From: Heliocidaris erythrogramma
Lineage: Eukaryota > Echinodermata > Echinoidea > Camarodonta > Echinometridae
Assembly (NCBI GenBank): GCA_025617745.1
Contig: CM046867.1
Coordinates: 26,528,705 to 26,592,704 of the forward strand
DNA length: 64,000 bases
Direction: 5' to 3'
Both the position numbers and the translations under genes were made by a program. Shown here one piece after another: positions 17,700 to 53,083 of the stretch. Numbering within the stretch: the first letter of the stretch is position 1; the number at the start of each line of letters is the position of its first letter. The notes beneath the pieces are model-generated. The model was not told where the DNA came from, did not search any database, and saw only the letters and a program-made list of their open reading frames with translations.

Positions 17700-17830
17700 A
17701 TATGTGGCCATTGGACATCAAAAATATGACTCTCAAAAGGTGAAAGTTAGAATCTCCCTTACCTGCAAGTTGTCTGGGATGGGAAAATCCCTCTTCTTTG
17801 GTGACCAGCTAAACCATAAATTTAGCAAAT
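17700..17830 (+). repeat. Dispersed repeat shared with 44925-45045
   Basis: Shares ATTGGACATCAAAA, GTTAGAATCTC, CTGCAAGTTGTCTGGGA and GTGACCAGCT, in order, with 44925-45045. It has no coding potential and the family is unknown. Confidence 0.65.
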
Positions 17831-17975
17831 TTGTAATTTTAAGCATCAAATTTTGCCCCTGTGATATTTGCTTGATAAGACCAAGTGATCTCATTGTGTG
17901 CCGCCCTCTGTGTGTGGAGAGAGGATATCTGCATTTGTTTATTGTTGTATGCAGTAGTACAGCAGTAAGGGTCAA
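17820..17975 (+). repeat. Repeat copy 2 of a pair 690 bp apart
   Basis: Direct diverged copy of 17140-17310, as described there. It follows immediately on the dispersed repeat at 17700-17830. Confidence 0.7.
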
Positions 17976-18261
17976 CAGTTATAGTCCAGTCATTTTACGG
18001 AATTGACCTCCCAGTTATAGCATATATAGAAAGTTATAAGAAATCTGAGTGGTGGAAAGTGTTAAAAAATACCTCAAATCAATAATTATTTTTTCATTTT
18101 TCTATGAGCACCAACAGCCAACTATACACATACAGCCCTGGAAAAATTACTAGACCTACCTCTTTTAAAGATGTATGTGGGAAGTGTTGGTTACATCAGT
18201 AATTGAACTTTCAAATTGATTTCTACTAGCTAAATTATAATGATTTGATGACTACTCCGTA

Positions 18262-18800
18262 AAACAATTACCCCCTACAATAAATAACCCCTTAGACAAT
18301 TACCCCCAGGGTAATTACCTCTCGGGACAATAACCCCCGCCCCCAGATAATTATCCCCAAAGGACAATTAGATCTAAATGCATGCACCCCCAAATGGATG
18401 GATACTTCAGATTAACTATAACAGAAGGAAAATATCCTAGAGGATAATTGTCGTGGGGATATTCTCCATGGGCAGGAAGGTTTTGAAAGAAATGTTCCGA
18501 CAGTAATGGTCTCTGGGATAATCGTCCAGGAGGTATGACTGATTGTCTGGTTAAGCCATGTTCACTTCTCTAGAGGCAGTTCAATTTTCTATTGTCTTCA
18601 ATTTTTATGTCACCTCAAATTTTCTCAGTAGAATCATAATCAGGCCATAATGCTTACACCAAGACAAGTAACGCTTGAAATTCACCCTCTCAGACATTTA
18701 TTGTCTATTTTGTGTCAAAAACCCTTTCTCATAGGAAAATGGGGGGGGGGGGGTAATTTCTGGGGAAATTTGTCCGGGGGCAGTCCTAGGGATAATTGTC
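18262..18800. repeat. Second foldback array of about 15-20-bp GGACAATTACCCCC units
   Basis: The left part (18262-18370) holds ACAATTACCCCC and AATTATCCCC words in direct orientation. The right part (about 18440-18800) holds the complements (GGATAATTGTC, GGGATAATCGTCC, AATTTGTCCGGGGG), with unique DNA between. It is the same unit family as 7668-8850 but more decayed, and it includes a poly-G run near 18740. This is an independent foldback insertion of the same kind. Confidence 0.65.
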
Positions 18801-18957
18801 ACAAAGGGAATTGAATGTAAATGGGAGTACATGTAGTATTCAATTAATAATGAATGAGCTGTTAATAATCACTTTCCTAGTTCCATAGACAATGGACTGA
18901 ACACTACCCATATGCCTCCAAATGCAGCTGGGCTAATAATTTTTTCCAATGCTGTAG

Positions 18958-19075
18958 ATTGGCCAACCTGGTTTCAGCTGGACACTCTATGACGCACATT
19001 CTTTGTTGTGTGCTTGCCTAACAAAGCAACGCATGCCGTATTGTGTCCAATTTACACCAAGCTACATGTATGTTT
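18958..19075 (+). repeat. Dispersed repeat, inverted copy at 23090-23185
   Basis: GCTGGACACTCT, CGCAC, TTCTTTGTTG, GTGCTTGCC and AACAAAGCAACG occur here in the same order as in the reverse complement of 23090-23185. Confidence 0.65.
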
Positions 19076-19455
19076 ATACCAATGACTCTGGCTTGACAGG
19101 GTGCCCTCTGAATAAAACAAATAATTACATTTCAGAATACATGTATATATGTAAAATGAAAAAAAATAATTAGGATAAGAGCATAGAAGAGAGAGAGAGA
19201 GAGAAAGAGAAGAAAGAGTGGGGAAAGCACTAACATATTTGAAAGGGGCAAGGGTGTCAGTTTGCCCCCTGTAATTTTCCGGCCAATAGAAAAATGAAAG
19301 TGACTTTTCATGGAAGTGAAATTATTGCAAGTTAAATAATCATCATACATCAGTTTGAAGTATGAGGTGACCAATGAGGCTTTGGTGACCAATTGGAAAA
19401 TTGATTTATTTTCTTTGAATACTAAACGTGCTCTTTGATATGAGTCTAATATTGT
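19076..19455. other. Unassigned segment with (GA)n-rich patch
   Basis: A GAGAGA-rich simple-sequence patch lies at about 19186-19215. No gene is seen. Confidence 0.4.
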
Positions 19456-19555
19456 AATTGAATATGGCAGCTAATTACGTATCTTTAGTGTGGGCAAAGA
19501 TCCAAAAGGACGGGATCTTCCTTTTACATGTTTTAACCAGTGATTATGCATGTAC

Positions 19556-20440
19556 CTCGAGTCCAAAGAAGGTGGAAGTCTTCCACCAGCCTGCACCCCG
19601 GGAGGAGTACCGCCCCCCTCACATCACCATTGGCGAGACTGAGTTGAAAGCAGTTCACCAGTTTACCTACATGTACCTGGGGTGCACCATCACATCAGAT
19701 GCCAAGATCGACAGGGTAGTAGACAGCAGACTGGCCAAGGCAAACAGCGCTTTTGGCAGACTCTACAACAGAGTCTGAAACAATAGGCACCTGAAGAAGG
19801 GCACCAAGATCAGCGTCTACTCTATAGAGCCGTTGTACTCCCCACCCTGATGCACGGCTCTGAGTCATGGTAACATACCGTCACCACCAACGACTCCTTG
19901 AGCGTTTCCACCAGCGCTGTCTCCGCACCATCCTCAACATACTTTGGAGCGACTATGTCACAAACGTTGAGGTTCTCGGCCAGGCGGAGATCACCAGCAT
20001 TGAGGCCATGTTGCTGAAGTCACAGCTAAGATGGGCGGGGCACGTCTCCAGAATGGAGGACCACCGCCTGCCCAAGATAGCCCTGTACGGTGAACTCTCC
20101 ACTGGTCACCGTGACAGAGGGGCACCGAAGAAACGTTACAAAGACTCCCTCAAAATGTCACTCGATGCCTGCCACATTGACCACCGCCAGTGGTCAACAC
20201 TTGCAAATGACCGGCAGGCCTGGCACCACACCGTTCACCAGGCAGTCTCTTCCTTTGAGGACTCCCGCAGGGCCAACCTGAGGGAGAAACGCTGCAGGAG
20301 GAAGGACCGGGTAGCCTCGGCAGCAGTACCAGACCAGACCTTTGATTGCAGTCGCTGTGGCCGGACTTGCCTGTCGTGCATCGGCCTTGTCAGCCACCAG
20401 CGTGCCTGCAATCGACGTGGACAGCCCCCTTCATAGATCT
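19556..20440 (+). mobile_element. 5'-truncated LINE, C-terminal end of ORF2 (broken)
   Basis: Only the region after the reverse transcriptase active site of a non-LTR retrotransposon remains. The first piece (to about 19778) reads FTYMYLGCTITSDAKID and SRLAKANSAFGRLYNRV, the thumb region. The second (19867-20436) holds FHQRCLRTILNILW, LRWAGHVSRMEDHRLPK and a terminal zinc finger, CSRCGRTCLSCIGLVSH. A frame change and stop codons near 19778-19867 separate the two pieces. No YxDD motif or endonuclease is present. The GC-rich codon use contrasts with the AT-rich surroundings. I cannot place the clade with confidence. Confidence 0.85.
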
Positions 20441-20745
20441 TCGTTCGCGAAGCTAAGCCAAGAGAGAGATGCATGTACATGTATATTAGCTGAAGGGGGT
20501 AAATTGCTTCTTGTATAATAAGCAAATGGCTTTTAATAATGAAAATGAGCAAGCAGTGTTTTCCTGTGAAAGAAACCATGTTGATTCGCCATTGGAAAAT
20601 AAAAAGGAAAATAATTTGTTTGTAATTATATGTGAGTAAGAATCTAGCACCTGCCATTGTACAGTGTATTTCCATTAAGAAATCTTATAGTAGGCCTACC
20701 ATAATGATTCGTTTTAATAGTGTATTTGCAATCGTGCTTTCACCT
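20441..20745. other. Unassigned AT-rich segment
   Basis: No gene or clear repeat is seen. Confidence 0.4.
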
Positions 20746-20746
20746 T

Positions 20747-21483
20747 TTTATGCCTCCGCCCACCGAAAGTGGTGCCAGAGGCAGCATGTTTTCGGGTTGT
20801 CCGTCCGTCCCGCTTTCTCGTTCTAGCGATAACTCAAGAATCACATGAGGTATGAACTTCAAATTTGATGCTAGTATGTATCACCATGGGAAGACGATCT
20901 GATTAGATTTTGGGGTACGTAGGTCAAAGGTCAAGGTCACAGGCCAATTTCTGAAATTTCAAGTGTTAGCCTTGTTCTAGCGATAACTCAAGAACCATTT
21001 GAGTTATGAACTTCAAACTTGGTGCTAGTTTGTATCACCATAGGAAGACGATCTGATTACCGGTAGATTTTGGGGTACGTATGTCAAAGGTCAAGGTCAC
21101 AGGCCAAGGTCACAGGCCAATTTCTGAAATTTCAGGTGTTAGCCTCGTTCTAGCAATAACTCAAGAACCATTTGAGGTATGAACTTCAAACTTGGTGCTA
21201 GTATGTATCACCATAGGAAGACGTTCTGATTAGATTTTGGGATATGTAGGTCAAAGGTCAAAGTTCATAGAGGTCATTATACAGGTGTATGTGAAATTTA
21301 TGGGTTTTTTTAACCTTTGTTATCATATCTCAACTACATGTATTTGGTATTCATGACTAGGAGGAGATAAAGTAATCAGGTTTTGGGGTTATAAGCTTTT
21401 TATTCTGGTTCAATCAAAATTTAAAACAAATCAACATCAATATGCGATATATTTTTGATCTGGCAAGGGCGGAGGCATAAATT
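20747..21483. mobile_element. TIR element filled with AGGTCA-bearing tandem repeats
   Basis: The ends TTTTATGCCTCCGCCC and GGGCGGAGGCATAAA are inverted repeats. Inside are a GTCCGTCCGTCC tract and three units of about 155-170 bp starting TTCTAGCGATAACTCAAGAA, each ending in AGGTCAAAGGTCA. The first copy (20921-20939) carries three AGGTCA half-sites. The element has no coding capacity. The plan of short TIRs around an internal tandem repeat is shared with 60055-60527, though the sequences are unrelated. Confidence 0.8.
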
Positions 21484-22000
21484 TCGACTGCGCAGTCGAG
21501 AATTCATCTAGTTCATATTTCCTTCCGCCCCTACCCCATCTCTCTTTCTTTCTCCCAAAAAATACCAACCCTCTCTCTCCCTCTCCTATTTTTGCCGTGT
21601 TGGGGGGGGGGGATGCCATAAAGAGCTACTGTCTGAGAGAATCAGGCAGGGATGGGAAGATGTGGGTCAGCAAACTGGATTCATATTTTAAAGTTTGATC
21701 AGAAGCCTTGAAACCGCTCCATTCCCATCAGTAATTTTACCACCCCACCCCAAAACATGCCCTCTGTAGCCTATTTTTACACTCTTGATTACAAAAAACA
21801 CCCAAATTTACATAAATGTTTCACCTAGGAAAAATGGCCTGATCTCTTTGAAATTTTAGCCACAAACCATCTTTACCTTGCTTGTGCTTCTGATATAGAA
21901 TTAGATAATGAATTATTATAATACTAAATGGTGATATGGTGATATTTTTACTTGGAAAATTATCATTTCATAGATTTTGGAGAGATTTGAAAAAAAATAA
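21484..22000. other. Unassigned segment with pyrimidine-rich patch and poly-G run
   Basis: A CTCTCTCT/CCCC patch lies at about 21520-21590 and a poly-G run at about 21602. No gene is seen. Confidence 0.4.
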
Positions 22001-23090
22001 AAGAAATGGCCCAACTTTTTATGAGCTAATATTTGTTCAGGAAATGTCTTTACTTGTCCACTATTGATTTATGATTTCAAAAGTGTGGAGCATCTTACAC
22101 TTTTTATGCACATGTCTGTTAAAACTGACACTTTTTCAACTTCGGACTAATTTCTGAAAAAGGTTTTCAAAGCTAATTTTGACAAACAAAATATTAAGTG
22201 ACCCAATGAGTTTTCAAATAATACTTCGGCTTGTTGGGTCTTCAGAGAGCTACATGTATGTTCGATATCTGAATTTTAGAATTGATTGATACTTTTGGTA
22301 TTTACATGTATGTCAAAATGTCCTTACAGTATGCCAATTTTCTCATTTTTGAAATTTGCAAGAAAAAGACAATAACTTTAACATTAATTTGTTGTAAGCT
22401 AATATCAATGACCTAAGCTTTTTTTAATCAATACTTCATCGCAGAGGGCTTTCATAGTGATACTTCTGATAACTGATGTCAAAAGTGTCGAATAATGTGT
22501 ACTTATTATGCAAAAATATACTAGATATATGCCATTTTACACATTTTTAGAAAAATTGAAAGAAAAAACGTTACTTGATAGATAAATACATATTGGGCTG
22601 ATATTAATGACCTAAGTTATGTTTGAATAATATTTGGTCACAGAGTGCCTTCGTAGTGGTACTTTTGATAACAGATTTTAAAAGTGTGGGGTAATGTGTA
22701 ATTGTTATGTAAAAATACACCCAAGATATGCCGTTTTTCACATTTTTGTGAAATATCGAAACCTAACTTTATAATAGGCTAATGTCAATGACCTAACCTA
22801 TTTTTAATAAATATTTGGTCATATAGTGCCTTAATATTGCTAATTTCAATGTCCAATTTCTCGAGTATGTTGAGTAATATGTAATTAATATGTAAAATAA
22901 ACCTAAAAATATTAATTTTCCCCCATTTTTGAAAAATTGAAAGAAAGAAAATAATAGTGGGTTCTTGTATAGCGCACATTCTGTCAGACTTGACACTCCT
23001 GGTGCTCCACAAAACACGTTAATCTAATAATCTTAAATTCATCTCACGCTAAAATCAATGACCTGGAATATATTTTGACTTAATACTTTG
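22000..23090 (+). repeat. Degenerate tandem repeat, about 5 units of 180-190 bp
   Basis: ATGACCTAA or a variant recurs near 22410, 22606, 22787 and 23057, and more diverged near 22200. It is followed each time by an AATAATACTTNG block and, in most units, AAAAGTGT, ATATGCCATTTT and CACATTTTT. Units are strongly diverged, so the array is old. Confidence 0.7.
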
Positions 23091-23185
23091 TAGCTTACGT
23101 TGCTTTGTTCGGCAAGCACGCAACAAAGAAAGTGCGCCAGAGTGTGTCCAGCTTCCCAATCCATGTGTATTGTTGGCTCTGTTGG
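23090..23185 (-). repeat. Inverted copy of the dispersed repeat at 18958-19075
   Basis: The reverse complement shares the GCTGGACACACTCTGG, TTCTTTGTTGCGTGCTTGCC and AACAAAGCAACG blocks with 18958-19075. Confidence 0.65.
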
Positions 23186-24476
23186 TGATTGACAAAGTGC
23201 ATTTATAAGATAATAAAACAGTTGAAATAATTTCTGTTGCAATTGGTGGGAGGTTCATGCCTTTTTTTTTCATGAAAGGACTGTACTATTACGTGTTTTC
23301 GCCATGACCATATTGGTTGAGCAGTTCGATTTTCGTACATTAGATGAGTGGCAGTTCATTGAGGTGGAAAGAAGTCACCATGCACGCAATAAACTGCTAC
23401 TAACTGTGCGGAGGGAATGGGTGGGGTGGGAGGGACTTGTTTCCCGATAACCATGATAACGCCCTGTTTTCTCCCCTCCTGCAAATCTTAAGGTCCTAAC
23501 TATACATTTTCTACATCTACGTGTCAAGGATAGAACTTTTGGCTATGTTGTGAAAATCAGCAGAACCCATCACTCAGGTTTAGATCCCACAACTAACCAG
23601 AAATTTTGGCACTAGAGCCCACCCAAATTTAAAATTTGTCAAATTTATCTCTAAATTGATATTGTATACATACAAGAAAGTATATAGATTTTCATCTAAT
23701 GCCACCCTGTACTAAAAATGTGCTGCCTATAACCCTGCTGTAGACATGGCACAGAACTTTTACTCTAGGGTTATTAAACTCAAAGATAGATGTGGGTTGG
23801 TGGGGTCATCAGACGAAGTATGCCAGCAGATGTTCTAAATTTTGTCCGTCAAGCAAAGAGGTTCCAAATACGAGCCATATGCATTAAAAAAAAGTCATCA
23901 GTTTATGTGATTTGCTGACAGGGTTCTAAAAATCCTGTAAGTTTTGAGGAGGAGGGGTGGGGGTAGAGTCGGGGAGATGTCATATCCCCACCCCCTTCCT
24001 CTAGAGATGCCCCTTGAGGCTTAGTATCAGCAAACTGCACGATTAACTATTATGTAGATTAAGTTTCTCTTAACCTTAAAATTTAGCAGGCAAGCTTTCA
24101 TCAACTCCTGTGTTTGTTTGGTAGAAGTTTATACATGTACATGTTATGATTTTCACCAAGTTCCCCAACCAGTGGAAGTTTTCAGTATCATGCATGATTT
24201 CCCTTTTTGCACTCCATATACATGTACATGTAAGTAGGGATAAGTTGTATGTGTAGGCCCATTCGCTTAACAATAAATTTTGTGAAGTCAGGAGGTGGGG
24301 CCAGATGGTTCACCCATTTGCCTTCCTCCCCTGGCTTCTCGGTAGGAGCTTATAATTTGAGTACATGTATGATTCATCAATAAAATGAAATAAAATATTA
24401 CAAAAAATTATTTAGGCCTTAGCAATAATGAGCTACATGTATCTGGTAATAGTATGTACTTTTTTCTTTACCCCAG
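23186..24476. other. Upstream region of RAB30, unassigned
   Basis: Contains a fragment of the dispersed repeat near 23290-23360 and several TACATGTA words. It ends in a strong polypyrimidine tract and acceptor AG at 24475-24476. RAB30 therefore has at least one untranslated exon farther upstream, which I could not locate. Confidence 0.4.
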
Positions 24477-24531
24477 ATCATCAGTCGTAGATTGTTTTCT
24501 GTTGTAACTTTGCTGAAGATCATCCTAAGTC

Positions 24532-27500
24532 ATGGAGGACTACAAGTATCTCTTTAAAGTTGTTCTCATCGGTAATGCTGGAGTTGGCAAAACATGCCTT
24601 GTCAGACGATTTACACAGGTAAGGCCTGATGGGTTATATTGGGATCAATTCCCGAACCCATCAGTCTCAGATGATATGGAAATCTTTTTCAGTTCAGAAT
24701 GTTCCAATGAATAGGTAACCCAACTTTGAAAATTTGATTGGATAGGCTATGTTTATCAGCAATAGAATTTATATCATAGTATGATTTCTATGTTTATGTA
24801 GAATAAGTTATTCAGATTTCCAGACTCTAGCTTCATGTGACACTAAAAAGAAAAATGCCCTAAATGTTCAGGACAATAGTGTTCAGTGATGCTTGACCGT
24901 GAAAACCATAAAGATATTGTAATCTTTCAGATAATATGAATTTAAATGTTCTAAAACATAGTGTACCCATATCAATTTTTTTTGTAAGTTGGGTTATATT
25001 TTTTTGAATGCCGAGTATTTTGGAACTTTATTACATTGCCACTAAATGCTGATGCTTGTAAATAAAACAAGCACAATCGTCACTTTACAATTTGTGTCAG
25101 TCATTGAGTGAAATGTTCTTGAAATAAAATATTAATACTTCCTTTGTCGAGGGGTTTTGCTTTTTATGAGATTTTACCAAATTTTAAAGGTATTTTCTTT
25201 TCAATTTCTTGATGCTCTTAACCATGGCTCATATATTGTGTACAAAAGAAGTATGAAATTTCATGATTTTCTGGTGATACCAAATACTTCTTACTAAAGT
25301 GTATGTGTTTAAACTATTATAAATAGAAATGAATTTTTGTTTTGTTCTTTATTCTGCTCTCAGTTTGTCTGCTAAATTATTTAAAGTTAAACTGAGAAAA
25401 GACCATTATCCAATGCTCCCAGGTTTTTGATCTGTGCACACAATTCTTTGGATTGTTGATTGTTACGTTTCAGGGCTTATTTCCTCCTGGACAAGGTGCT
25501 ACTATAGGGGTTGATTTCATGATCAAGACAATAGAAATTGGTGGTGAAAAAGTCAAGGTAAGTATGAAGAAATTAGGCCTACTTATTCAGAAGATATGTT
25601 ATGCAGGGTGGCCCAAAAAGAACACAGACCTGAGTTCTGCAATTTCAAAGACATCATTGACACATTGTCAGTGGTTTTTATTTTATTGGGTAGAAAATTC
25701 TTTCATAAGTAAAATGACACCAGGATCATCAATTTTGGGTAAGGTGTTTTTGGTTTTACAACTATTCTTGTGAGGCAATGTTGTTTTCAAAATTTGCTAC
25801 TTTCGCAACTGTTATCATGCTTGAAGCAGTGAGAAATTTGTGCATGACGGATTCCCTTACAATCAGCTGTGTTGACAAATACGTGACTGCTCTCGCTCTG
25901 AAAACAAAGACAACATGAATGAAATGGAGATTGTATTGGAAGCTGTCATCCGCAAATTTCTCGCTGCTTCAAGCATGACAAAGGTTGCAAAAGTAGCAAA
26001 TGTTGAAAACTACACTGTCTCACAATAATAGCAGTGGAATCAAAACACCTTACCCAAAATTGCTGATCATGGTGTCATTTTACTCAAAAAAGAAATTTAT
26101 ACCCAGTAAAACAAAAATTAATGAATTTTTGTTAATGATGTCATTAACCCCGTTCCTCCCGGCACCTACTCACTCCTGATGACGGACAGTCAACCTGTCC
26201 GAAACGTCGAGTCTTCTTCACTCTCAGCCTTCTCATCTGGTTTACAGTCCTTTTCAGGACTTCACACTTTCAAGAAAGATTACTTCTACACTCTCTGGAT
26301 TTCTATCTCACCTTTCCTTTTCTTCTCCTCTCAACTTTTCTCCACTTTCTTCTTCTTACTTAATTGTCCATTTCAGGTCTAACCACATGGTGAACCGTAA
26401 ACCTTCTCCACGATGCCATTGAAATCGCAGATCTCAAGTGTTGCATTCTTTTTGGATCGCCCTATATATTACATGCAACCTAATGATCTGTGTGTTTTAC
26501 TTTACAAAAGGAGAGATTGGAAGTTCAAATATTGGAATTGAGCTCAGCCAGTTATCCCACTAAACGCATTTCATGCCTGCTGCCAATATTAGGCTCTACT
26601 GGATGGATAATTTTTTACGAAATTCGTTTAAAACAAAAACCTTGGTTTTTCAGACTTAATAGTGGGTGTGACTGGTCATACATGAAGGATTAATTATTTC
26701 TTGCAAATTACAATGCAGTAGACTGCCTATACTGTTATCAGGTCAATGAAAGGACTTGGAATAAATAGCAATGATTATGAACATATTTTATTATCACATC
26801 TGTTGTTTTCTTTGTGAGGGAAGCTACATTATGCAAGAAATATCACAAAAAATTTTCACACCATATAGGAGTACATACATGTATGATGTACTGACATTTA
26901 TCGGAGAAGTAGGATTAAACAATTTATTGCTGCATTTATATCAGTCTTCCTCATTTATTGGTTTTCATCATGCAAATACCATTTCTTTTGATCTTTCTTG
27001 CTATTAGTTACAAATATGGGATACAGCTGGTCAAGAAAGGTTTCGTTCTATCACTCAGAGCTATTATCATAGTGCAGATGCACTTGTTCTTGTCTTTGAT
27101 GTCACTTCAAAAGAAAGCTTCAATGCACTACCAAGTTGGCTAAGGGAGGTGGAGCAGTATGCAAGTCCTAAGGTCATATCAGTGTTAGTAGGTAAGTAAG
27201 CCTTTTCTTATATATCATATCCAGGGCTCTCGCCAGTGCATAAGTTGCAACCACACAAAAAAAAGAAGAAACCAGTCCTTAATAACCTTTTGTGGTAGGA
27301 CTCAAGCATAGGGGAAGAGGGGGGGGGGGGGGGGAGTATGCCAGGAGCAAATTTCTCCCTAACAAGGGAGGTATTTGTGTCAGTTCATACTTGGAATCTG
27401 CAAATATACTTTGATCCTTCCTGATGATGCAAGACCTTATTTCTTCACTCACTTTGGACCAAGGTTTAAAAAAATCCTGCAGAGAATCCTGACATAGATT

Positions 27501-28066
27501 CTTAGATCATTGGTTTTCAGGTGTATGAAGGGCAGAACTTTATAATGCTATTTGTATATTTTACCTGAAAGGTGTAACCCTTATCTTAAAAAAGAAAAAG
27601 CCCATGAAGTTTGATAACAGCAGCTCAAAAGGCTTTGGAATTAGCACTACTTATATATGACCAAAAATCAAATTTGTGACAGAATAACAAATAGGTCAGT
27701 TTAATAATTAATAAGACCTTATTTGATTAGTAAGTTGGGTATAGAAATTTATCAGCTACTCAATTAAATTGCAGAAAAAGATAGATGTATCTAAATTATT
27801 TTTTTTGTATTGGTTCTATGTCAGGTAATAAAATTGACCTAGGTAAAGATCGGGAGGTGAATGAAGAAGATGGGCAAAGCTTTGCAGATTCCCACTCCAT
27901 GCGTTTCCTGGAGACTTCAGCCAAAGAGTCTGACAATGTGGATCGCCTCTTCCTGGACATTGCAGTTGAATTAACCAATAATGTTAGAAATGGTGAGATC
28001 AGACATGATGACCATGAAGATATCATCAAAGACACTACATCCGTCTCCACATGTTGTAAAGGCTGA
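24532..28066 (+). CDS. RAB30: Rab30 small GTPase, four coding exons, 198 aa
   Basis: Coding exons are 24532-24618, 25474-25557, 27008-27191 and 27825-28066, all with GT/AG introns and consistent phases. The 198-residue product matches vertebrate RAB30 (203 residues) almost throughout. P-loop GNAGVGKT is at 14-21, switch I with effector threonine in ATIGVDF at 38-44, WDTAGQE at 61-67 with catalytic Gln66, NKID at 120-123 and ETSAK at 148-152. The tail ends TCCKG: two cysteines near the end, the geranylgeranylation site, as in the CC-containing end of human RAB30. The family cycles between GDP and GTP on Golgi membranes and acts in Golgi organisation and trafficking. The ATG at 24532 is chosen because MEDY matches the family start. 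The 5' UTR part of this exon begins after the acceptor at 24476. Intron 2 carries a foldback element and a retroelement tail remnant. The open frames beyond exons 1 and 2 are intron read-through. Confidence 0.97.
25605..26150. mobile_element. Long-armed foldback element in RAB30 intron 2
   Basis: The left arm (about 25650-25860) and right arm (about 25945-26150) are reverse complements over roughly 200 bp. Examples are AAAATGACACCAGGATCATC with its counterpart near 26065, and GCTTGAAGCAGTGAGAAATT with its counterpart near 25960. A loop of about 90 bp lies between. The leftmost GGGTGGCCCAAAAAG may be the true terminus, with the matching right end lost. No transposase is present. It lies wholly within the intron and does not touch the splice sites. 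Confidence 0.8.
26165..26215 (+). other. Hammerhead-like motif in a retroelement tail remnant
   Basis: CTGATGA is followed by GGACAG, a short loop, CTGTCC and then GAAACGTC. This is the order of the hammerhead core: CUGANGA, stem II, GAAA. One extra C lies between the core and stem II. Hammerhead motifs are known in Penelope-like elements, and the pyrimidine-rich DNA after it (to about 26380) could be their tail. No coding part of such an element is present here. Confidence 0.4.
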
Positions 28067-28644
28067 CTGTTCTGATGATATTGCAAAAGCATCCCATTTA
28101 TCTCTACATGTTTATATTGTTGAACTCTCTGATGGCATCATTAAAGACACTACATGAACATCAGTCTGTGGTGGAAATTTCTGATGATATCAAATTCACT
28201 GCACCTGCATATTGTTGAACTCTGATGATATCATTAAAAAACTCAAAGGCAGTTCATTAACCTAAATTTGAAATTTCTGTCAAATATATTACATCAGTCC
28301 TTTAATGATATCACCAAAGATTTCACTACTCCAGTCTGTACATGCTGTAAAGGTTGACCTCTCTGATGATATCCCAAAGACACTACTTCAGTCTGTACAG
28401 GTTTACCTCTCTGTTGATATCATCAAAGCCACTACTCCAGTCTGTACATGCTGTGAAGGTTGACCTCTCTGATGATATCACCAAAGACACTACTCCAGTC
28501 TGTACATGCTGTAAAGGTCTACCTCTCTGATGATATCATCAAAGACTGTACTCCAATATGTACATACTTAAAAGGTTGACTTCTCTGATATAATCATCAT
28601 TGACACTACTCCAGTCTGTATGTGATGGGAATGTTAACTTCCTG
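28016..28644 (+). repeat. 58-bp tandem repeat derived from the RAB30 C-terminal codons
   Basis: About 11 units, the first being the last 17 codons of RAB30 plus 7 bases. Units at 28413-28470, 28471-28528, 28529-28586 and 28587-28644 are exactly 58 bp. Those from 28074 to about 28304 are more decayed. Each begins GATGATATCA and the better ones read as DDI-KDTTPVCTCCKG followed by TGA, echoing the real EDIIKDTTSVSTCCKG end. All copies after the first lie beyond the stop codon at 28064-28066. Confidence 0.9.
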
Positions 28645-31600
28645 CTGTGTCACACTGATGGTAATTTTAATTGTTTTCTTCTTCAAGGTTAAGCTGTATG
28701 AGTTTCAACGTATGCAAGTACAAGTATATGCATTGAAATGCCCCACCACATTTACTTTTGTCCCATTACTTGTATGTTTAGCACTACACACCTTTGGATT
28801 TGAGTTTTTGTATTCAGTCAACAAAATAGTCCTAGTATTGTGAAAATATGCAATATATGTTATGCAAAATAGTTATGAGACTCATTGAAAAGGGAAGTGA
28901 TTGATCATTTAATGTAACTCGACATATTCCGGCTTATTGCTAATTCACATGTACTTCAATCGATAGTTCATCTCGTTGTAAAAGATAAAGTCGAGTTCTG
29001 ATCATGCAAATACATTGTGAAAGAAACTCTTTCAAAGCAAGTGGGAAAGGTTGGTCATGTCTACATAAGGATTGGTGTCTAATGTGAGGTTTTGGAATCA
29101 TCAAAATGATAAGAAATTGACCCCATCTCGCTGAAAAGCACATTCACAGTGCATACAGAAATGGGTATATGGTCATGTGTCAGTTATGAGGGCATTTGAG
29201 GAGCAATCCTTTTCAGGGGACATTTCTACTATGATGTTCTTCCAAACTTGCATAAGAGAAATGAGAAAGCTCATAAATTATTTTTTACCTTTCCCAGAAC
29301 TCAACCTTATCTTTAAGGTTCTTATTGTAGTTCTGATATTAAATGCTAGATATTTCCTTCACAGGGGAATCAATTTTAGTAGTGGGAATTACATAGAACA
29401 GATTGTGAATTACAAAACAAACTCTATCAAACAGAGAGAATATATTGTATTTGATTTTGTCTTGCCATGTTAAAAAAAGTATTATTTCAGCTATACTGCC
29501 TGTAAAATGTGCAATTATTACTGCAATTCTTTTGTGCTCATCTTCAAAAAGTATATTTACTGTAAATACACATATACTGCCAAGTCTATATCAATTTTAT
29601 TTAGAACAGCATCTGTGAATCTGCTAGAGAAAGAGAAACAAAGGACAATCAACCCCATTTCAATCAATGCTACCAAAATAGCAGACTATCTGCTGATAAT
29701 GTAAAAAAACAAGACAGGTAGTATGAAACATTTGAAAAGAATAATAAAAGGTCTTGTGTCCTTTGTAACCAGATATAAAATCTGCAATAATACCACATGA
29801 TGTTAATGGATTAGGTTAATGGGCTGTGAACAAGTGATAAAAACTACAAGATATAAAGGTTTGTGTTCCAGAAAAGGACAGTTTGATTCTGGGACCGCCC
29901 ACTCCTGGCAAGACCGACAGGTCAGTCTTGTGGGCTGTCAGTCTCGTTAACCCTCAGGTAACTTTTCATCAGGACCATGAGACCAACATTGTTGGTCTTG
30001 TCGGTTTCTCTCGCTTTCGTGGGCTGTCTTTTTCTGGGCTTTAGCTTTTTGATTGCCATGACATCATTCACCATTTTGTGTAACTAACATTTAACCAATT
30101 TGCTTGAAACACCTATTCAAAGTGCAATTTTTTTTTATTAAACAAGGTCTTGCCTTAGTTGCAACAGTTTAACAACTGCCAGTTTTTTTTTCCTTTTGTG
30201 TTTTATATTTATCACTTATCTTGAAATACAGTGTTCAACCTGTGGAAATTATTCCCTTCAGTGATTTGGACCAAAAAGCAACAAGAAATGTCATTCTTTA
30301 AATATAATGCTTTGATGTCCAAGTATTTTATCCTCATCATTTATATCTTGGACTTCTTGTTTATGTTGTGTTTGTTATGATTAACATAAAACAATTGATT
30401 GATTAATGGAAACTGTAAACATTCCTCTTGTAATTTTTTTTTTAAAATATCAATAATTTTGCAATTTCTTCATCTTTTAGAGAATACAGACTCAATATAA
30501 TTCTTGCCTTGAGGCGTGTTTACAATGCTTGTCAGTACCTGATACAATTTTTCCAATATCAGTGTGTTTTTAAACTGTTTTTTCCTTCCATGGAGCCAAG
30601 TACAAACTGGACACACTACTGGTAAATGTTTCTCAGATTTGAATGTATTTGATCCTTTATACTGGTACCCTGCAAAGGTACACAATAGTCTCATTTAATT
30701 ATCTTGTATTTTATCATGTGTAACAAGAAAATATTTGAACACTGTTAAGTTTTAAATATTTTGGTATCTCCCTCCTTTCTTTTTTATTTGTGCAAATATA
30801 TGAGGAATAGTTGGATGATATCATTGTAAGAGATCAATTTGTTTTTAATACTATGTCCTTTGGCATATGAAAAAAACATATTATTCTAAGTACTTTTGAT
30901 AACATGTTTATAGAAAAGGCAGTCTAAATATACTTTAATAGAAGAGGTTTGCATGATACGTGTTGTAAACAGTAAACCTACACTCTTGCTCTATGCCTCT
31001 TTAATAAACTGTTGTATGATGTATGTTTATTTTTAATTATTTGGAATTAATTTCAGGATCTGCAGCAAGTCACAAGAGAGCATATTGCACATCATTTAAC
31101 AATGTCATTTGTGACTTTGGGGCACAAAAAGTACAGGTATCAGAATGTTATTCCTGAGTGTGATAGTGTTGATTCGTTTTAAGCATACATATTTATTGCC
31201 ATTTCTCAAACTTTATTTACCCATTTCTAACAGAGGTATGCTGGTTGAGTTGTGATAGAAATGGACATTTGCAGACATTGTGAATGTTTAGAGGTGATGT
31301 GTTCAGATAGGTGTATAGGTAGGTAGTGATCAGTGACTGTATAGGATGTTCAAGACACCATACACTTATACTATGCAATTATAGGGTGTCATAATGTGTT
31401 CAAGTCCAAGTCCGTACTTAGAACAGATATTTGTAGTTTCTCTAGCAAGTAGATTTTGGTGGATAGGTCAAATTTATATTGCTGTGGATGTATACTAAAA
31501 AAAAGAAACATAATCTGTGCAAGTGATATGAAGTTTTTATGAAATTGTAATAGAATTGATTTTTTTTTTTTTTAGAAATCTACATTGATTTTTGAAATGA

Positions 31601-31822
31601 TAGGCTAAATCGTTGCAAATGAATAAATATAAAATTGTTATGCTTAGCTCTGTTAGCAATTGTGCTGCCTAACCTGCCATCAACAGGCTTTATTAAGGCC
31701 AAGTGAATCAGATAAGAGCCCGTACATTTTCCATAACCTCCACAACCACTACATGTATTTTCAAATTGTTGCAGTTTGCTTCCGCTCTCATCTCTTTGAT
31801 ATCTTTGAGTGGTAATATTGTT
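28645..31822 (+). other. Probable long 3' UTR of RAB30 and downstream DNA
   Basis: AT-rich single-copy-looking DNA with no supportable gene. Candidate poly(A) signals (AATAAA) occur, for example near 31005 and 31615, but none can be chosen from sequence alone. RAB30 of vertebrates has a long 3' UTR, so much of this may be transcribed. Confidence 0.4.
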
Positions 31823-31873
31823 TGTTGAGAGGAAGAAGGGCATACAGAGTTTATACCTTTCTGGCTCTCAACA
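31823..31873. mobile_element. Degraded relative of the hairpin insertion at 6786-6870
   Basis: The ends TGTTGAGAG and CTCTCAACA are inverted, and the inner AGAAGGG and CCTTTCTGG match the arms of the 6786-6870 palindrome. The arms are shorter and imperfect. Confidence 0.6.
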
Positions 31874-34800
31874 GATTAATATCCTCTTTTATTTTTTTAC
31901 TTCCACATGCACCAAAGACACATTCTTTGATGATTTAACTATTATTGTCTATGCAATATATTTTGATAAATTTTCATCCAGCTTAGTAATGTAGAAATAA
32001 AGTTATTTTTGTGGTACACTTGTATTTAGATTATTGTTTTTGAAATTTACTTGTACCTTCATTTGTAAAAAGTTCTGCGCTTGTCATTATAAAGGTATAT
32101 ATTTAGAGTTGGCTGACATAGGCCTTATTCACACTTGCAAACTGGGTTCTCTTTGTAGGATTATAATCCTTGATATGAAACCTCTTATATGAGTGGGAGC
32201 ACACTGTGGCACCTGTGAGTACTCTACTGTTATTTGTTAGTGTGAGTGGGATTATAGTATGGTAAGAAATACTACAACAAAAGATGATTATGAAATGTCT
32301 TGCTATTTGTACAAATGTGAAAATGTGTTGCTACTTTCAGCAATATCTGAAAGTATGACTCATTGGATATTATGTAAATGTGTGCTTGTAGTTGTACATT
32401 CATTGTTACACTGTGGTACACCTCCCTCTCTGTCGGGATGTACGTGTATTCTTCTATTAGAGTATTAGAATTTATTTTTGTGTCCCAAACATTAAGTATA
32501 TGTTAGTGGTAAAGTAGTGTTTTATAATCTAGATGTAGCGGTGACTATTAATGTTATTTCTATATGCCTTATATTGCTAGTATACCCTTTTAATATTCAT
32601 ATGTAACAATGTATGACAGAAATGTTCATGCAGCAGCAATTCTTTAGCAATGTCTGGTAGATGTGAAGGAAACGAAGGAACAAAACATTTTCATACCTTT
32701 TTGTGCATTTATGGATGTTTTGTGTTCATTTGGCAAGAAAGATGTGCAATGATGCAGAGGATAATATCACCGGACCAGACTATAGATAAATAGCTCAAAG
32801 TCACTCTTTTCACCTTTGGCAAGGTATGTACGTGCAATTCTGATTTTTTACCAAGCTTCAAATATGTTGGTTTCAAAATGTAACAAGTATATGTTTCAAT
32901 CGCAGCCTTTCTATTTTTCTAATAGTAAGAAAAGTCGATGCAAAGCTTTTCCTGAATGTATGCTTTCAAATGTTCTTTCCTATCTTTGTTTTGATTTTGT
33001 TTGTTTTGATGTTGATGATACTAACATGCCCATGCATACAGCACAACTGAAAATTTAGAATGATAGGCCTTTTGCTTATTGTAGGAACCTGAATGTTTTT
33101 TTTATACTTAGTATGCGACTGCAGAGGGTCTAACATAAGAATAAAAGACCAGCATTTTTCAGTTTTGAAGGTTATTTGCCAGCATGAGATTATGTCACTC
33201 AAGATTCTTCACAAACTGTAAGATGGTTGTACAAATTGGAGCTACTCTTCCATGAATGATGTTGCTGTAGATTCTTTTAGTTATTCATGTCGGTGTGATT
33301 TAGATTTATCCAGTATGTGACTATACATGTGGCTCACATGACTGTAAGAAGGTTGTTGAAGCCTATCCTCTAGTTTGGAGGTACTCCTGTAATATCTTGC
33401 TAGATTACTCATATTCAGCTCATGTCTGTATGATTTATATTTAACCATCACAAAATTTGTTGCCTATACGACAGAGGTAAAATCTACCTATATGCATAAC
33501 ATCAACTATTGTGAATAATGGGAGGTATACTGCCAAACCCCAATTTATCATGTGCATGAAACGTTTGTGATTGATCAGAGTGATTCAGATTTGCAAAAGT
33601 TTCATGTTATGCCAGTTTCTAGTTTTACAGTGTGCAAGGATTGGAAATACAGGAAGACACTGCAACAAGATACATGTATATTTGTTTTCTTCCTTTGATG
33701 TTTTGTCAGACCTTGTTATCCCGACTATTTGACTTCAATGAAAATGAATTAATATAGTTTGCCATGCAATCCTGAAGGAAAAGAGGAGAAAGGGGCAAAA
33801 CCCATGCTCTCATTTAAGACCATCTTTGCTACAAATTTAGCAATTTTTTTGATTACCTAATTTGGTACTGAAGGTCATTTTAAAGACTATTTTTAAATCG
33901 TTAATTAGTTAAGCCTAGAATAGATGAGAGTCCACATTGAAAACATGCACCGGGCTTACAGGTTGAAAGGAAATAATATTTCCAATATTTTACTTCATAT
34001 TCCTTGTAACATTATTCTTGCCATAGTGAGAATAGTCCTTATCGCACTTAACTGTACTCCACTTTCGTGCAATCAATACCATAACTTTTGGTCATCCCAA
34101 GTTCAACATGATTGATTAATAGTGATATAAGTTATTTTTGTTTGTAAGGTGCTATTTTGCTGAAGTTCTGAGTATTATGTTTGATTTGTACCTTCGTATT
34201 TCTTTCTCAAATTCAGTGAAAAGTGAATAGTGTTCTAATAATCTAAATATGACATGTAGCTAATGTAACTATGTGTGTATTATACAAAAAAATTGTGAAT
34301 TATGTACTTGTAAATGAAAAAAAGAAATCAAATACATATAGCTGAAAATTGTAATACAATGTGTACAATATGGCATGATTGTGTATAAAGTGTTAACATT
34401 CATCTTTATTCTGTGACAGTTGGAGAAAGTGCAGAATTCTTTAAGATTGCACAATTACCTCAAGTTTTAAATCATCAATATGAAAAATGGGTCAATTTTA
34501 TCTCTTCAGTGATGAAATTAATTTAAATAGCATTAGGACCTAACAATTAGGAACATTATAACCAAACAATTAGGACAACACATTTTGTCACATTATAAAC
34601 ATATTTCCTTCCTTATTTCCATGTTCATGGAACTACAATAATGCAAAATGTGTGTATATTGCAGGGTTGAAAAAAGAAATCAGGTTTACGTGATTTAAAT
34701 CGATTTATAGATAGCCCTAAATGTTGTTACTATACAAAATAAATACATCAACACTCACTTGGATGAGTTTTGTCAGCCCAAAAATGATTTTTGAGAGATT

Positions 34801-35745
34801 TTTTCATGTCACATGAACAAAATCGATTTTTAAAATGTATTTGGCTTTGTGTTTTTACTTGAATTAATAATTTTCTTCTAAAAATCATGGTGATTTGGCT
34901 TTGTTTTTTACTTGAATTAATAATGTTCTTTTTAAAATCATGGCGATTTAACCCTTTAGATTCAGAGCCATAATAATATACCAGATGCATGAGTAGAAAG
35001 ATCAAACAAATTCTGCATACACTTCCCATTTTTGTTGCATGGCCATATTTCGTTTGATGCCAGGCATTTCAAAAAGGATATTAAGCTTGAAAATCCTTAA
35101 ATTGGCAACACATTGAGCGGTTCAAAATAATTTTTGGTCAAGATTTTGTCAACTTTTCGACAAAGTTCGGGACTATGTACGTTGTTTTCAAAGACATTAC
35201 ATTTTATTAAACCATGTAGCATTAAAAGAAAAATATTTTTTGTTGCCAATTTGAAGAATAAAATGTGATCAATTTAGCCTTTACTCAGGCAATCCAACCT
35301 TGCTAATAGATGATTTTGTGTGAAAGCAGAAATATAAGAAAAACAGAATGGTGAAAGTTTGAAAGAAATCGGACAAGGAATAAGAAAGTTATGGATGTTT
35401 GAAAAATGAGATCACTACATCTATGCGAATCTCAAATTGGCAATTTAGTGAGTCGATTGTGACCATCGATGATTGTGACATAAATGCGGACAACTCTCCC
35501 GTTTGTCGTTCACAAAAATATTTGCGGTCTTCTTTACCATCGGCCGGGGCAGTACGCAAAATATATTATAGATAGCATATTGTTAGGTCCTCATGAAAGA
35601 AAAAGATATCGAGTGACATTTTTTAAAATGAAATTTCAGTTATTGTTGTGTGTTTGAGCAAATGGGGGAGTTGTCCGCCACGACAGTGACATTACCTATT
35701 CGGAATTCCCATATGTATATAGTGATTACACCTTTAAAAAATTGA
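31874..35745. other. AT-rich intergenic DNA
   Basis: No gene is seen. A tandem duplication of about 66 bp (TTACTTGAATTAATAAT copies near 34857 and 34909) is present. A short inverted pair with GCGGACAACTC words near 35475 and 35670 suggests an old MITE-like element of about 240 bp. Confidence 0.4.
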
Positions 35746-35747
35746 TA

Positions 35748-36715
35748 TACGTTTTAGAGCAAATTTGAGAGAAAGATAACGGCTCTTAAAACTGAAAACT
35801 TAGTTGGACACCCTGACTGCTTTTCAGTTATTTGGACGCCCTGGCTGCTTTCCAGTTATTTGGAAGCAATACTGCTCTGTATGTAACAGGGGTGGGTGCA
35901 GGGAGGGGGGGGGGTCCCCCTTCCCGAGCGAAGGGCGAAAGTTATAGATCGACGCCCTGACTGCTTTTCAGTTATTTGGACGCAATACTACTCTGTATGT
36001 GACAGGGGTTGGTGCCAGGAGGGGGGGGGGGGGCAGGTGCGGATACAGGATTTTCAGAAAGGGGGCGCACACTGAGGGACCCTCCGTTTGACGAAGCCAA
36101 ACGGCCATCTAGGGGTCCGGGGGCATACTTTGTCAGACAAAACAGGTGGGGGGGGGGGGGGCACACGCCCCTTGCGCGAAAGCTCCGACATTTTAGCAAA
36201 TTTGAGTGAAAGATAACAGCTCGTAGCAAACAATGTTTAGGCGGAAAGTTATAGTTCGACGCCCCGACTGCTTTTCAATTACCTGGACGCAATATTGCAC
36301 TGTATGTAATAGGGGTGGGTGCAGGGAGGGGGATTCCTCCTTCCCGCGCAAAGTTATTTCGACGCAATACTGCATGTGACAGGAGTTGGTGCAGGGAGGG
36401 GGGGGGGTTCCCCCTTTCCCGAGCGAAGCGCGAAAGCTCTGACGTTTTAGCAAATTTGAGAGAAAGATAACGGCTCCTAGCAAACAATTTTTCTAGGCGG
36501 AAATTTATAGTTAGACGCCCAGACATGCTTTTCAATTATTTGGACGCAACATTTCACTGTATGTAACAGGGGTGGGTGCGGGGAGAGGAGAGTTATTTCC
36601 CCCCTTTGACGTTTTAGCAAATTTTGTTTGTAGCCCCTTTTTAGGCCTTTTTCTCTCACTTCTCCCGCTTTTTCGCTCTCGCTTTTTTTTTAGTGGCTGA
36701 ATAGGGGGGGGGGGG
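35748..36715 (+). repeat. Left arm of an inverted pair of tandem arrays (GACTGCTTTTCA units)
   Basis: Units of roughly 180-260 bp contain GACTGCTTTTCAGTTATTTG, GACGCAATACTGC, GTATGTAACAGGGGTGGGTG, a poly-G run, GCGAAAGCTC, and AGCAAATTTGAGAGAAAGAT. The units are at about 35815, 35959, 36267 and 36530. An insertion of about 135 bp starting CAGGTGCGGATACAGG (about 36034-36172) interrupts one unit. The arm continues inward to TTTTTAGGCCTTTTTCTCTC and GTGGCTGAATAGGGG, which are mirrored at 37325-37380. Confidence 0.8.
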
Positions 36716-37319
36716 CATGGCCCCCATGTGCCCCCCTGTATTCATGCGAGTACTGTGTGTAGAAATCATTCCTCTTTCACCAAACCCATTTCACTCCGAT
36801 AAAAACCATTATTTTCACTCTGAAACAAAATATGTTCCTCTTTTTTCTCGGCCTAAAGGTGGCGCTATAGCCAGCTAGCTGAGGTGAGGTGAGGGGGGGG
36901 GGCACACGTGCTGGGGGCGGCGCAATCGAATCCTGTCCGAAATTCCGAACGCGAAGTTGACATTACTCCCCATCCTCAGGAGCATCGCAAGAACATTTTG
37001 AAGGGAGGGGGGAGGGGGGGGGTGTGACACCCAAATTTGCCGACAAAAATGCAACCCTAATCCCCCACAAATACGAATAAAAGAAAATCGCAAATGTAAA
37101 GATCTTAATAATACGGGTCCATTTTCGCGAGGAGGGGGCTTACGCCTTTTGCCCGAATATCAACTTTTCAAATTCTAAATGTTTTTGAGTGAGCGAAGCG
37201 AGCGAGCAAATTTAAAAAAAATCGTAGTGAAATTGTACAGAAGGGGGGGCTGCCTTTTTCCCGAATATCAACTTTCAATGTCTAAATGTTACATACGCAC
37301 ATAGGCGTAGCCAGGGGGT
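36716..37319. other. Spacer of the 35.7-37.9 kb inverted arrays
   Basis: Unique DNA with poly-G runs and a two-fold direct repeat of about 120 bp (CCCGAATATCAACTTT near 37153 and 37260). GAGTGAGCGAAGCGAGCGAG lies at 37187. It ends near CATAGGCGTAGCCAGGGGG, a common transposon-end word. No gene is seen. Confidence 0.45.
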
Positions 37320-37948
37320 ACAGGGGGGCCCCTTATTCAGCCCCTTTAAAAGCGGGGGAAGTGAGAGAAAAAAGCCTAAAAGGCGCTACAAGTCGTTATC
37401 TTTCTCTCTAAATTTGCTAAAACGTCAAAGTTTTCCCCCGGAGGGAAATAACTCACCTCCCTGCATCCACCCCTGTTACATACAGTACAGTATTGCATCC
37501 AAATAACTGAAAAGCATCCGGGGCGTTGAACTAATTTTCCGCCTAAAAGAAGGTGCTACAAGCCTTTATCTTTTCCTCAAATTTGCTATAAAACGTAAAA
37601 GCTTTCGCGATTCGCGCGAGAAGGGGGAAACTGCCCCCCCCCCCTCCCTGCATGTATACAGTGCAGTATTGCGTCCAAATAATTCAAAAGCAGCCCGGGC
37701 GTCGAACTAAAGTTTCCGCTTAAATTTTTGTTTGTTACGAGCCGTAATCTTTCTCTGAAATTTGCTAAAACCTCAGAGCTTTCGCGCGGGAAAGGGGGAA
37801 ACTCCCCCCCCCCCCCTACACCCATCCCTGATACATAAAGTGCAGTATTGCATCCAAATAATTAAAAAGCAGTCCGGACATCGAACTAACTTTCCGTCCT
37901 AAAAAAGGTGCTACGAACCGTTATCTTGCTCTCAAATTTGATATAAAA
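37320..37948 (-). repeat. Right arm of the inverted pair of tandem arrays
   Basis: Reverse-complement units with TATTGCATCCAAATAA, AAAAGCAGTCCGG, TTATCTTTCTCT and AAATTTGCTAAAACGTC at about 175-bp spacing (37510, 37687, 37863). The arm stops abruptly at about 37948, where LINE sequence begins. Confidence 0.8.
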
Positions 37949-40900
37949 TCAATTTTTACAATCCATGTAAGAAATTCAATGAATTTATTTTAAAAGAATT
38001 ATTAAAGTTTGTAAATGAAAGAGATAAGATAATAATCACAGGGGACTTTAATGCACATAGTCCATTGTGGGGAAGCGAGAAAGTGGACAGTAATGGCCAC
38101 GCAGTGGAACACTTTTTAAATAAAAATAATCTGCTTGTCTTAAATGATAAAACAGGTACAAGGATGGACCCTTACTCTGGTAAACTTTCACATTTAGACT
38201 TAACTATCTCCTCACCAATCTTGGCAGGTAGGGCTTCATGGAAAGTTTTGAATAATTCCTTTGGTAGTGATCATTTTCCCATACATATTGAAATTCAACC
38301 AGGAAAGAAAGACGCACCATATAAAAATAATGTGAAAAATATAGATGAGGAACGATTTTCTTTTAAGAATTTTAATTGGGCCAAGTTCTCAGATAAATGC
38401 AATGATATCCTGGATGAAAGTTCAATCTTTACAGAGGCAGATGTTAATAAATCTTATGAATCATCATCCCAGTATAGCTTCGTATGTGAGCTGCATCAGG
38501 GATTATTTCTACAAGGTACAAGGTATCATTAACTACTTGAAAATATGTATTAGGGAAGTGATTCCAAAAACAAAAGAAATATAGAAAGGAATCCAGTTCC
38601 ATGGTGGAACAAAGAATGTTCTAATAAAATAAAAGAAAGAAATAGACTCAGTAACAAACTGAAAAGAGAATTCACTTTTGAAGCAATAGATGAGTTTAAG
38701 AAGAAGAAAGCGGAAGCTCAGCGAGTCCTCCGTCTAGCGGAAAGGGAATACTGGCAGGCTTTTTGCAAAAGACTTGACAGGAATCTAAAAATATGTCTAC
38801 ATTGGTTGAAAACGGACAGGACATTATATCAACCCAAGAGAAAACAGAAGCCCTTGGTAAATTTTTCCAATCCTTGGGACTGAGAAATAAAGAAGCAACC
38901 CTTAAAACAATCCTGACAAGAACGGAAAATTGTCCTTTCTGAAGAGACCATGTGATTAACGAAAAATTTTCAATGTATGAACTCGAAAAGGCTGTTAAAA
39001 CCTCCAAACGCACCACGGTGCCAGGGAAGGACAATATTCCATATGGTCTATGGAAATATGTCCGAGAGAGCTAAAAACACTATGTTACATATTATTAATG
39101 AAATATGGGAAACTGGAAATATTCCACGTCCTCTAAACATTCCATATTGGTTCCAAAGTCTTAAAACTGGTAAGGATTCTAAAAATGTAACTTCTTACAG
39201 ACCAATATCTCTCATGTCATGTTTTGCGAAAATTATTGAGCGTAATAATGATCAATGACAGATTACAATGGTACATAGAAAAGAATAATAATTATTGCCT
39301 TATTTCTTGAGTGGGTTTAGAAAAGGGCGTAGTTCCACTGACAATATTGTTCTCCTGGAGAATGACATTCAAAAGAGTATTAATTGTTGTGAGCATACGT
39401 TGGTAGTCTTTTTGGATGTTGAAAAGGCCTACGATAGTCTGTGGGTCGAAGGATTGTTATTTAAACTCTTTCATTGTGGTATACAAGGAAGGATGTACAA
39501 TTATTTGCGTGAATACCTAACAGAACGTACTTTTCAAGTAAGAATCTTAGATACAGAATCAAGCACAGACAAAATGCATAACGGTTTACCTCAAGGTAGT
39601 GTTTTGAGCCTCTCCTCTAATGTGATGATGAGGGACATTCCAACAGACCCAGACGTAACAATATCTATGTATGTAGACGACTGTGCAATATGGACGTAGT
39701 AAACTTGATATAATTGGATTGAAAATCCAATCTTATTTGGATAGATTATCCTCTTGGTTCAAAGAATGGGGTTTTAAACTCTCAAATGAGAAAACTGTAC
39801 CTGTATTATTCACGAAAAGTACATACATTTCTCAACCAGTATTGAACTTGGAAGGGAATATAACATATAAACCGTCTCACCGTTTTTTAGGAATTTTATT
39901 TGATAGCAAATTGACCTGGCACTCTCATACAGAAAATGTACTGTACAAGATGTAAACGAAAACTAAACATAATATTATTACGTAGTTTGACAGGAATAAA
40001 ATGGGGAAGCTTATCAAAATCCCTTCTAATTGTTTACGGAGCACTTATCAGATCTCTTCTGGACTACGGGTGCCAAGCATAATGATAGTGCAGCTGAAAC
40101 TACCAAAAAGATCTTAGATTCTGTGCAATATCAAGCTCTTAGGATATGTGCGGGGTGTCTCCCGTTAACCTCTTTGAGTTCTTTACAGGTTGAAATGGGG
40201 GAACTACCTCTAGACCTAAGAAGACAATAATTGTTATCTAGCAAGTACAGACAAAGTATTGAGATAAATTTTAATGCACTGGTAAGTCATATAGAACCAT
40301 GCTGGCAATTTGAATACCTAAAAGACAAATGTGTTTGAAACCTTACAGTATACAGTGTAAGATGGGAAAAGAAATTATCGAAATACTTAGTCCTTCTGTC
40401 CCCCCCCCCCCCCCCCATGGTTATTCTGTCCACTATTCTGAAATAGTAGACTCGTGTGCAAAAACTGCTCTGTCAAAAAATATTGAAATATATAACAAAA
40501 TAACACTTTCAGAAAAAAAAAAAATTATAGTTCAGAGTTCCAAAGTACTCTGGCAAGAAAGATGGAATCAATCAAATTACAGTTTAAAAGAGCTGCAGTC
40601 ATCAATTACATCCACTTACACTTGTAACCTACGGTAGACAACAATAAATAATACTCCATCGTCTTCGAGTTGGAGTGATAGGTCTCAACCATGATCTATT
40701 AAGACTAGGTATTCATCCAACTGGTTTCTGCGACAGATGTCAACAGGTTGAAACTGTCGGCCATTACCTTATAGATTGCCCAAAATATATTATCGAGAGA
40801 GCGATGCTCCTGTGTGAACTGAATGAAACCAATGAAAGAAAACTATCTGTGTATTTGAAAAGTAGTGATCCCCAAATACAAAGGGCTATTACACGTTTCG

Positions 40901-53044: not shown

Positions 53045-53083
53045 GTACAGAAAAGGTTAATATACACTGTAGTAAGACAACCA

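Follow-up and report, generated by a model that had tools for sequence, protein, structure and literature searches.

A minisatellite behind the Rab30 stop codon, very probably seeded by the end of the gene's own reading frame

Directly behind the stop codon of a Rab30 gene in the sea urchin Heliocidaris erythrogramma stands a tandem array, running from 28015 to approximately 28643 of the window (the whole 64,000-nucleotide stretch analysed here, C15:26528705-26592704), the first unit of which is the coding end of Rab30 itself (its last 16 codons) and which continues with nine or ten further units. Very probably the feature is a 3′-UTR minisatellite that was seeded by the end of the Rab30 frame and that changes by slippage or unequal exchange, probably neutrally.

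The gene lies on the + strand and was rebuilt from four coding exons: the coding part of exon 1 (24532..24618, from its translation and splice sites), exon 2 (25474..25557) and exon 3 (27008..27191), both from the exon reconstruction and the latter with a Pfam Ras match, and the coding part of the last exon (27825..28066), with the TGA stop codon at 28064-28066. The resulting frame of 597 bases including the stop encodes 198 residues ending in HDDHEDIIKDTTSVSTCCKG, and its exon pieces are matched by Pfam Ras. Among the best 60 of 922 matches of the whole protein to solved structures, the Rab-30 chain 2ew1 comes first (288.2 bits, E 2.9e-85) and is followed by Rab-43 chains at 197.1-197.5 bits, which puts the protein nearer to Rab30 than to the other Rabs of known structure. 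The naming of the gene as RAB30 in the earlier note is thus borne out, both by this difference (288.2 against 197.5 bits) and by the rebuilt exons.

When 27801-29200 is scanned with a 58-base consensus, ten units are recovered, the coding copy and nine others, from 28015 to 28641, with scores of 33-104. For comparison, the best scores from 200 simulated first-order sequences of 1400 bases had a median of 25, a 95% point of 31, and a highest value of 39. The coding copy (28015..28072, + strand), which spans a single base, the final 16 codons, the stop and the 6 bases behind it, scores 76, far beyond the simulated range, so that the array is genuinely linked to the coding end. The six units from 28305 onward score 62-104 and three old units score 38, 42, and 33; two of the latter (33 and 38) fall inside the simulated range and have the register as their only support. 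Tandem Repeats Finder (TRF) reports a period of 58 over 28393-28620 (score 314) and over 28345-28564 (score 194). Cutting by register gives 11 segments including the coding one, with lengths, in order, of 58, 57, 48, 45, 80, 61, 48, 58, 58, 58, and 58 bp, and for ten of them none of 500 shuffles matches as well, while for the weakest, 28178-28222, one of 500 shuffles is equally good; the cuts were placed by eye, for the most part where a start resembles TGATGATATC, which makes these shuffle counts lean in favour of the segments. Head-to-tail units of this size lie within the range of approximately 10-100 bp that characterizes minisatellites. The description of a 58-bp unit repeated about ten times from within the last exon therefore holds for the array and for its start in coding sequence but not for a uniform length, 58 bp being merely the commonest value (the coding segment and four of the ten others) within a range of 45-80 bp. 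A two-unit query (28441-28556) run against the genome of 1.06 Gb in 26 contigs, with both first-look candidates scored and with simple repeats and very common words skipped, found no dispersed copies, all seven of its matches lying at the two Rab30 loci of the assembly. On this search, in which these two loci alone match, a dispersed or transposon origin of the unit was rejected.

The units fall into two groups on the + strand. Consensus scan, identities and register cuts mark 28073..28302 (segments 28073, 28130, 28178, and 28223) as proximal, old, and decayed, and TRF, alignment and identities mark 28303..28643 (segments 28303, 28364, 28412, 28470, 28528, and 28586) as distal and younger. Units 28305, 28364, 28412, and 28470 match one another at 85-96% and the coding copy at 79-82%, and units 28528 and 28586 are 72-84% identical to those four and 68% to each other. 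The two units nearest the stop, 28073 and 28130, share 45% with each other and 63% and 62%, respectively, with the coding copy; against the rest, unit 28073 reaches 45-72% and unit 28130 reaches 45-81%, the upper ends of these ranges stemming from 28223, of which a short part is aligned. The first 14 columns of the four old units match the consensus at 0.86 versus 0.65 elsewhere, a difference that counts against the favoured reading but is to be read with the fact that most unit starts were picked on that very motif. The homogeneous part of the array is thus its middle-to-distal block (28305-28527), with decay at both array ends, as would be expected where gains and losses of units occur mostly within an array. 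The earlier note had held that the copies resemble each other more than the coding copy and that the array was homogenised: the first holds for the four units of the homogeneous block and fails for those nearest the stop, and the second applies to that part only and not to the decayed units. Moreover, local duplication of neighbouring units would suffice to explain the homogeneity, which makes conversion unnecessary.

In the proposed course of events, an early tandem duplication would have copied approximately 58 bp, made up of 16 codons, the stop and a few bases, to a place directly behind the stop codon. As the first stop would have left the protein unchanged, the extra copies would have been free of selection, and later duplications and losses would have occurred mostly in the distal half, where replication slippage or unequal exchange between neighbouring units may have changed the length, made the middle homogeneous, and left the edges decayed. 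The coding end would accordingly be the parent of the array. The opposite direction, in which the array is the older and gave rise to the coding tail, has in its favour that Rab tails are variable, so that the tail sequence is silent on direction; Rab30 proteins, however, terminate in a double-cysteine prenylation motif, so that a working parent would be expected in the frame, and this reversed order is regarded as highly improbable.

DNA and protein searches find one further Rab30 locus, at C15:25.892-25.897 Mb, on the same strand and 661 kb distant. All four coding exons are identical between the loci, and both loci carry the same coding tail, though the array length differs. In a global alignment of window 27000-29308 with the second locus, 2.3 kb show no substitution outside the tracts of length change, the exceptions being one base beside a 7-bp insertion near 27738 and a few bases inside a complex indel at ~28268-28290 (net 17 bp), which lies in the proximal old units; a single C near 28373 is also extra at the second locus. 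The array of that locus is lengthened by a two-unit block of 107 bp, aligned after 28393 and composed of one 58-bp and one 49-bp unit, and the same scan counts 12 units there versus 10 in the window, an assembly error being possible in this count. Such variation in unit number, here between two loci of one assembly, is the mark of a minisatellite or VNTR. It also contradicts the absence of length variation that the earlier note had named as grounds for abandoning its reading. The unit of change may have been a two-unit block, made of a 58-bp unit and a shortened one of 48-49 bp, with the two loci differing by one such block. Since the extra block has bases absent from every unit of the window, a loss of 107 bp from the window is at least as likely as a gain at the second locus, and the shorter window array may be the derived state.

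It has to be noted that tandem repeats are prone to collapse in assembly, and the two lengths could on that account be an artefact, a collapsed or wrongly expanded repeat with no real variation behind it. The substitution-free flanks of 2.3 kb fit with this, as they would make the reads of the two loci hard to distinguish there. Against it, the extra block has strings lacking in the window array (AGAGG once and TTTGTAC twice), and it is therefore no mere recount of window units; furthermore, an array of 0.6-0.7 kb would be short for long reads, although the read type used may differ. An artefact is accordingly judged unlikely, and a real difference in array length is preferred.

The two loci lie in a common block (14763..38344 of the window, in the same orientation as C15:25.88-25.91 Mb, with an interrupted alignment), in which BLAST aligns 22,260 bases with 333 substitutions and 125 indel events; 50 of the 333 substitutions fall in two 500-base bins at 28000-28999, where the array gap was misplaced. 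Substitutions between the loci amount to 0-0.6% per 500 bases over the Rab30 coding exons and introns (24500-27999) and to 0.2-4.3% in the other 500-base bins outside the array; the low divergence at 24500-27999 is as after recent recombination or conversion, or as under constraint. Upstream, C15:25857940-25867739 matches 26.503-26.511 Mb at 86-95% (40 of 12397 candidates scored), which implies that collinearity resumes upstream of the window, the homology there being interrupted by satellites and inserts. For C15:25907940-25917739, with 6 of 6774 candidates scored and its own place not among these six, the matches are on other contigs and at C15:14.79 Mb, a result that carries no information on the surroundings of the window. 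Window 52000-60000 finds itself and 39 copies of a high-copy element, and as 40 of 17306 candidates were scored, this search is no proof of single copy.

From the sequence comparison, the two Rab30 loci would probably be retained alleles, with a true duplication as the alternative. False duplications are described as widespread in some assemblies (PMC9516828), and the Rab30 case resembles such false haplotype duplications in that a single assembly contains a nearly identical pair, whose members in this case share contig and orientation. It differs from them in that the edges of the Rab30 block lie inside contigs without N in the stretches covered. These edges, free of N runs in the 90 kb and 64 kb stretches concerned, speak against retained haplotypes; the only gap is one of 500 N at C15:25917785, which is ~11.6 kb beyond the end of the block. 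A false (haplotype) duplication nevertheless remains the likely nature of the second locus. Nine Rab-like locus pairs, that of Rab30 included, share contig and strand, lie 38-661 kb apart, and have scores within half a bit of each other, as counted by eye among 53 matches of the Rab protein search, on contigs C1, C4, C5, C10, C11, C15, and C21. In the one other pair compared (L021/L022), 3.2 kb align at 98.9% identity, 2 mismatches and 5 gaps being counted. Such same-contig Rab pairs suggest retained haplotypes, or tandem duplications. Importantly, the main conclusion is independent of whether the loci are alleles or paralogues, because the array length differs while the coding tail is constant.

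The repeat copies show no sign of coding constraint. The statement in the earlier note that several copies still read DDI-KDTTPVCTCCKG-stop proved too strong: that exact reading is found in none of the ten non-coding window segments, and a CCxG-stop is read by two of them (28303 and 28412), the former as NDITKDFTTPVCTCCKG-stop with one inserted codon and the latter as VDIIKATTPVCTCCEG-stop. Segment 28470 reads DDITKDTTPVCTCCKG, which keeps TPVCTCCKG with an altered stop and three more codons read, the double cysteine is gone in segments 28528 and 28586, and the remaining five have no CC-x-G at the corresponding place. A CCxG-stop is present in 3 of the 12 non-coding segments at the second locus. 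In the six young window units, 17 of the 18 gap-free codons that differ from the consensus are non-synonymous (114 of 144 for random single changes), and the 24 base changes are spread over codon positions 1, 2, and 3 as 7, 11, and 6, counts that treat as independent units that are not so. A coding cassette, with a frame kept under constraint, is thus not what is found, given these codon changes and the eight of ten segments without CCxG-stop. Pfam gives no family for the frames at 28272-28460 (in the array), 19864-20433, and 29135-29470, and for 28604-28840 it gives one match below cut-off, THEG4, at 16.5 bits against a cut-off of 27. A coding reserve was rejected on the codon changes and the unchanged coding tail.

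These readings bear on a suggestion of the earlier note, namely that the array may be a source of alternative tails. As considered here, deletion, conversion or alternative splicing would let a repeat copy take over from the coding one in frame and so yield tails of the TPVCTCC type. TPVCTCC is indeed kept in three window segments (28303, 28412, and 28470), and a donor-like ATG|GTGAGA (GT at 27993) is in phase with CTCCAG acceptor-like sites before 28335, 28441, and 28499, the first two of which would yield ...VRN-VCTCCKG-stop and ...VRN-VCTCCEG-stop, while with the putative acceptor before 28499 the reading would extend through LPL before a stop; there are four such CTCCAG sites at the second locus versus three in the window. 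However, the phase match would have a probability of roughly one in three of arising by chance, and this for all sites of the family together, the pyrimidine tract at the acceptor-like sites is poor as judged by eye, and a fourth CTCCAG, at 28609, has no cysteine codons behind it. Together with the codon changes in the young units, the segments that lack CCxG-stop and the same coding tail at both loci, this leaves the suggestion unsupported, and such a reservoir is scarcely to be expected. A more specific version, a bank of prenylation tails in which the weak donor at 27993 is spliced to the CTCCAG sites, so that the 24-residue GEIRHDDHEDIIKDTTSVSTCCKG is replaced by VCTCCKG or VCTCCEG and the number of acceptors is set by the array length, is extremely unlikely.

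The array probably lies within a 3′ UTR of ~1.7 kb, as predicted from motifs in the sequence. The first AATAAA after the stop codon, at 29743..29748 on the + strand and with GT-rich sequence behind it, is the likely polyadenylation signal in a motif scan, and its use would place the array inside the 3′ UTR. The same scan finds two ATTAAA within the array, at 28140 and 28233, through which some transcripts could end earlier.

A position in the mRNA would allow the array to act as an RNA element, as the earlier note had also proposed; the GATATC near-palindrome and the hairpins of the units might then serve stability, localisation or protein binding. Consistent with this, the predicted folding of the array RNA surpasses that of all 20 shuffles (z -2.72), and a consensus unit repeated six times outdoes 197 of 200 control arrays built from shuffled units. 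The pairs of the unit hairpins are kept in 80.7% of cells across units versus 30-64% when the 3′ side is slid by 1-3 columns, a figure favoured by the derivation of the structure from the consensus. In 28070-28644, GATATC occurs 7 times and TGATGATATC occurs 5 times, against simulation averages of 0.153 and 0.001, although repetition alone could give such an excess. On the other hand, the 80.7% is no better than the mean of 82.2% for shuffled partners, none of the 15 hairpin pairs is altered on both sides, and RNAalifold, given 8 units (7 of the 11 window segments plus one of the two additional units at the second locus), predicts no structure common to them, so that the covariation by which a structured RNA would keep a common structure is missing. 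Rfam likewise gives no family in 27800-29900, its one match there being below the gathering score and outside the array, and the full 14-base palindrome occurs once only in the window array. The proposal of an RNA element is consequently unsupported despite the better folding, and such a function is very unlikely; the GATATC near-palindrome may account for the folding signal of the array.

The array is an ordinary minisatellite akin to known 3′-UTR VNTRs, with the twist that its units would be copies of a coding end together with its stop. 3′-UTR VNTRs such as the 40-bp VNTR of SLC6A3/DAT1 (PMC4472402, PMC8502797) are like it in having units of tens of bases behind the stop in variable number; unlike the SLC6A3/DAT1 units, those of Rab30, known from sequence alone, would repeat the end of the reading frame with its stop. 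The CEL gene, an example of a coding VNTR (PMC8692231, PMC5352176), shares with it length-changing repeats in the 3′ part of the gene; the CEL repeats are translated, whereas at Rab30 the first stop ends translation and the copies are unconstrained. In the portion of the PMC literature consulted, which is mostly without subscription papers, no earlier description of a stop-codon-spanning Rab30 array was found. The Rab30 array offers a small and clear example of a minisatellite that would have been born from the end of a coding sequence, with the first stop shielding the protein while the copies change freely. It also cautions that frame-like readings in repeat copies need not imply function and that near-identical gene pairs in an assembly may be alleles. 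Were alternative tails made after all, they would be a route by which a Rab gene could change its membrane anchor.

Other repeats lie in the surroundings of the gene. A 214-bp satellite occupies 590-3608 (14.1 copies, 92% matches), and two satellite arrays with units of ~229-239 bp in TRF lie at 4205-6786 and 9918-14427; the consensuses of these two look reverse complementary by eye, and the arrays would thus face each other around 6.8-9.9 kb. A 190-codon open frame at 19864-20433, likewise without a Pfam family, resembles the end of a LINE-type reverse transcriptase. At 50545-51456 there is a 20-bp minisatellite (45.6 copies, 98% matches), and the ~900-bp element at 55265-56168, which has at least 39 copies elsewhere on many contigs at 98-100% identity (40 of 17306 candidates scored), is probably a recently active mobile element.
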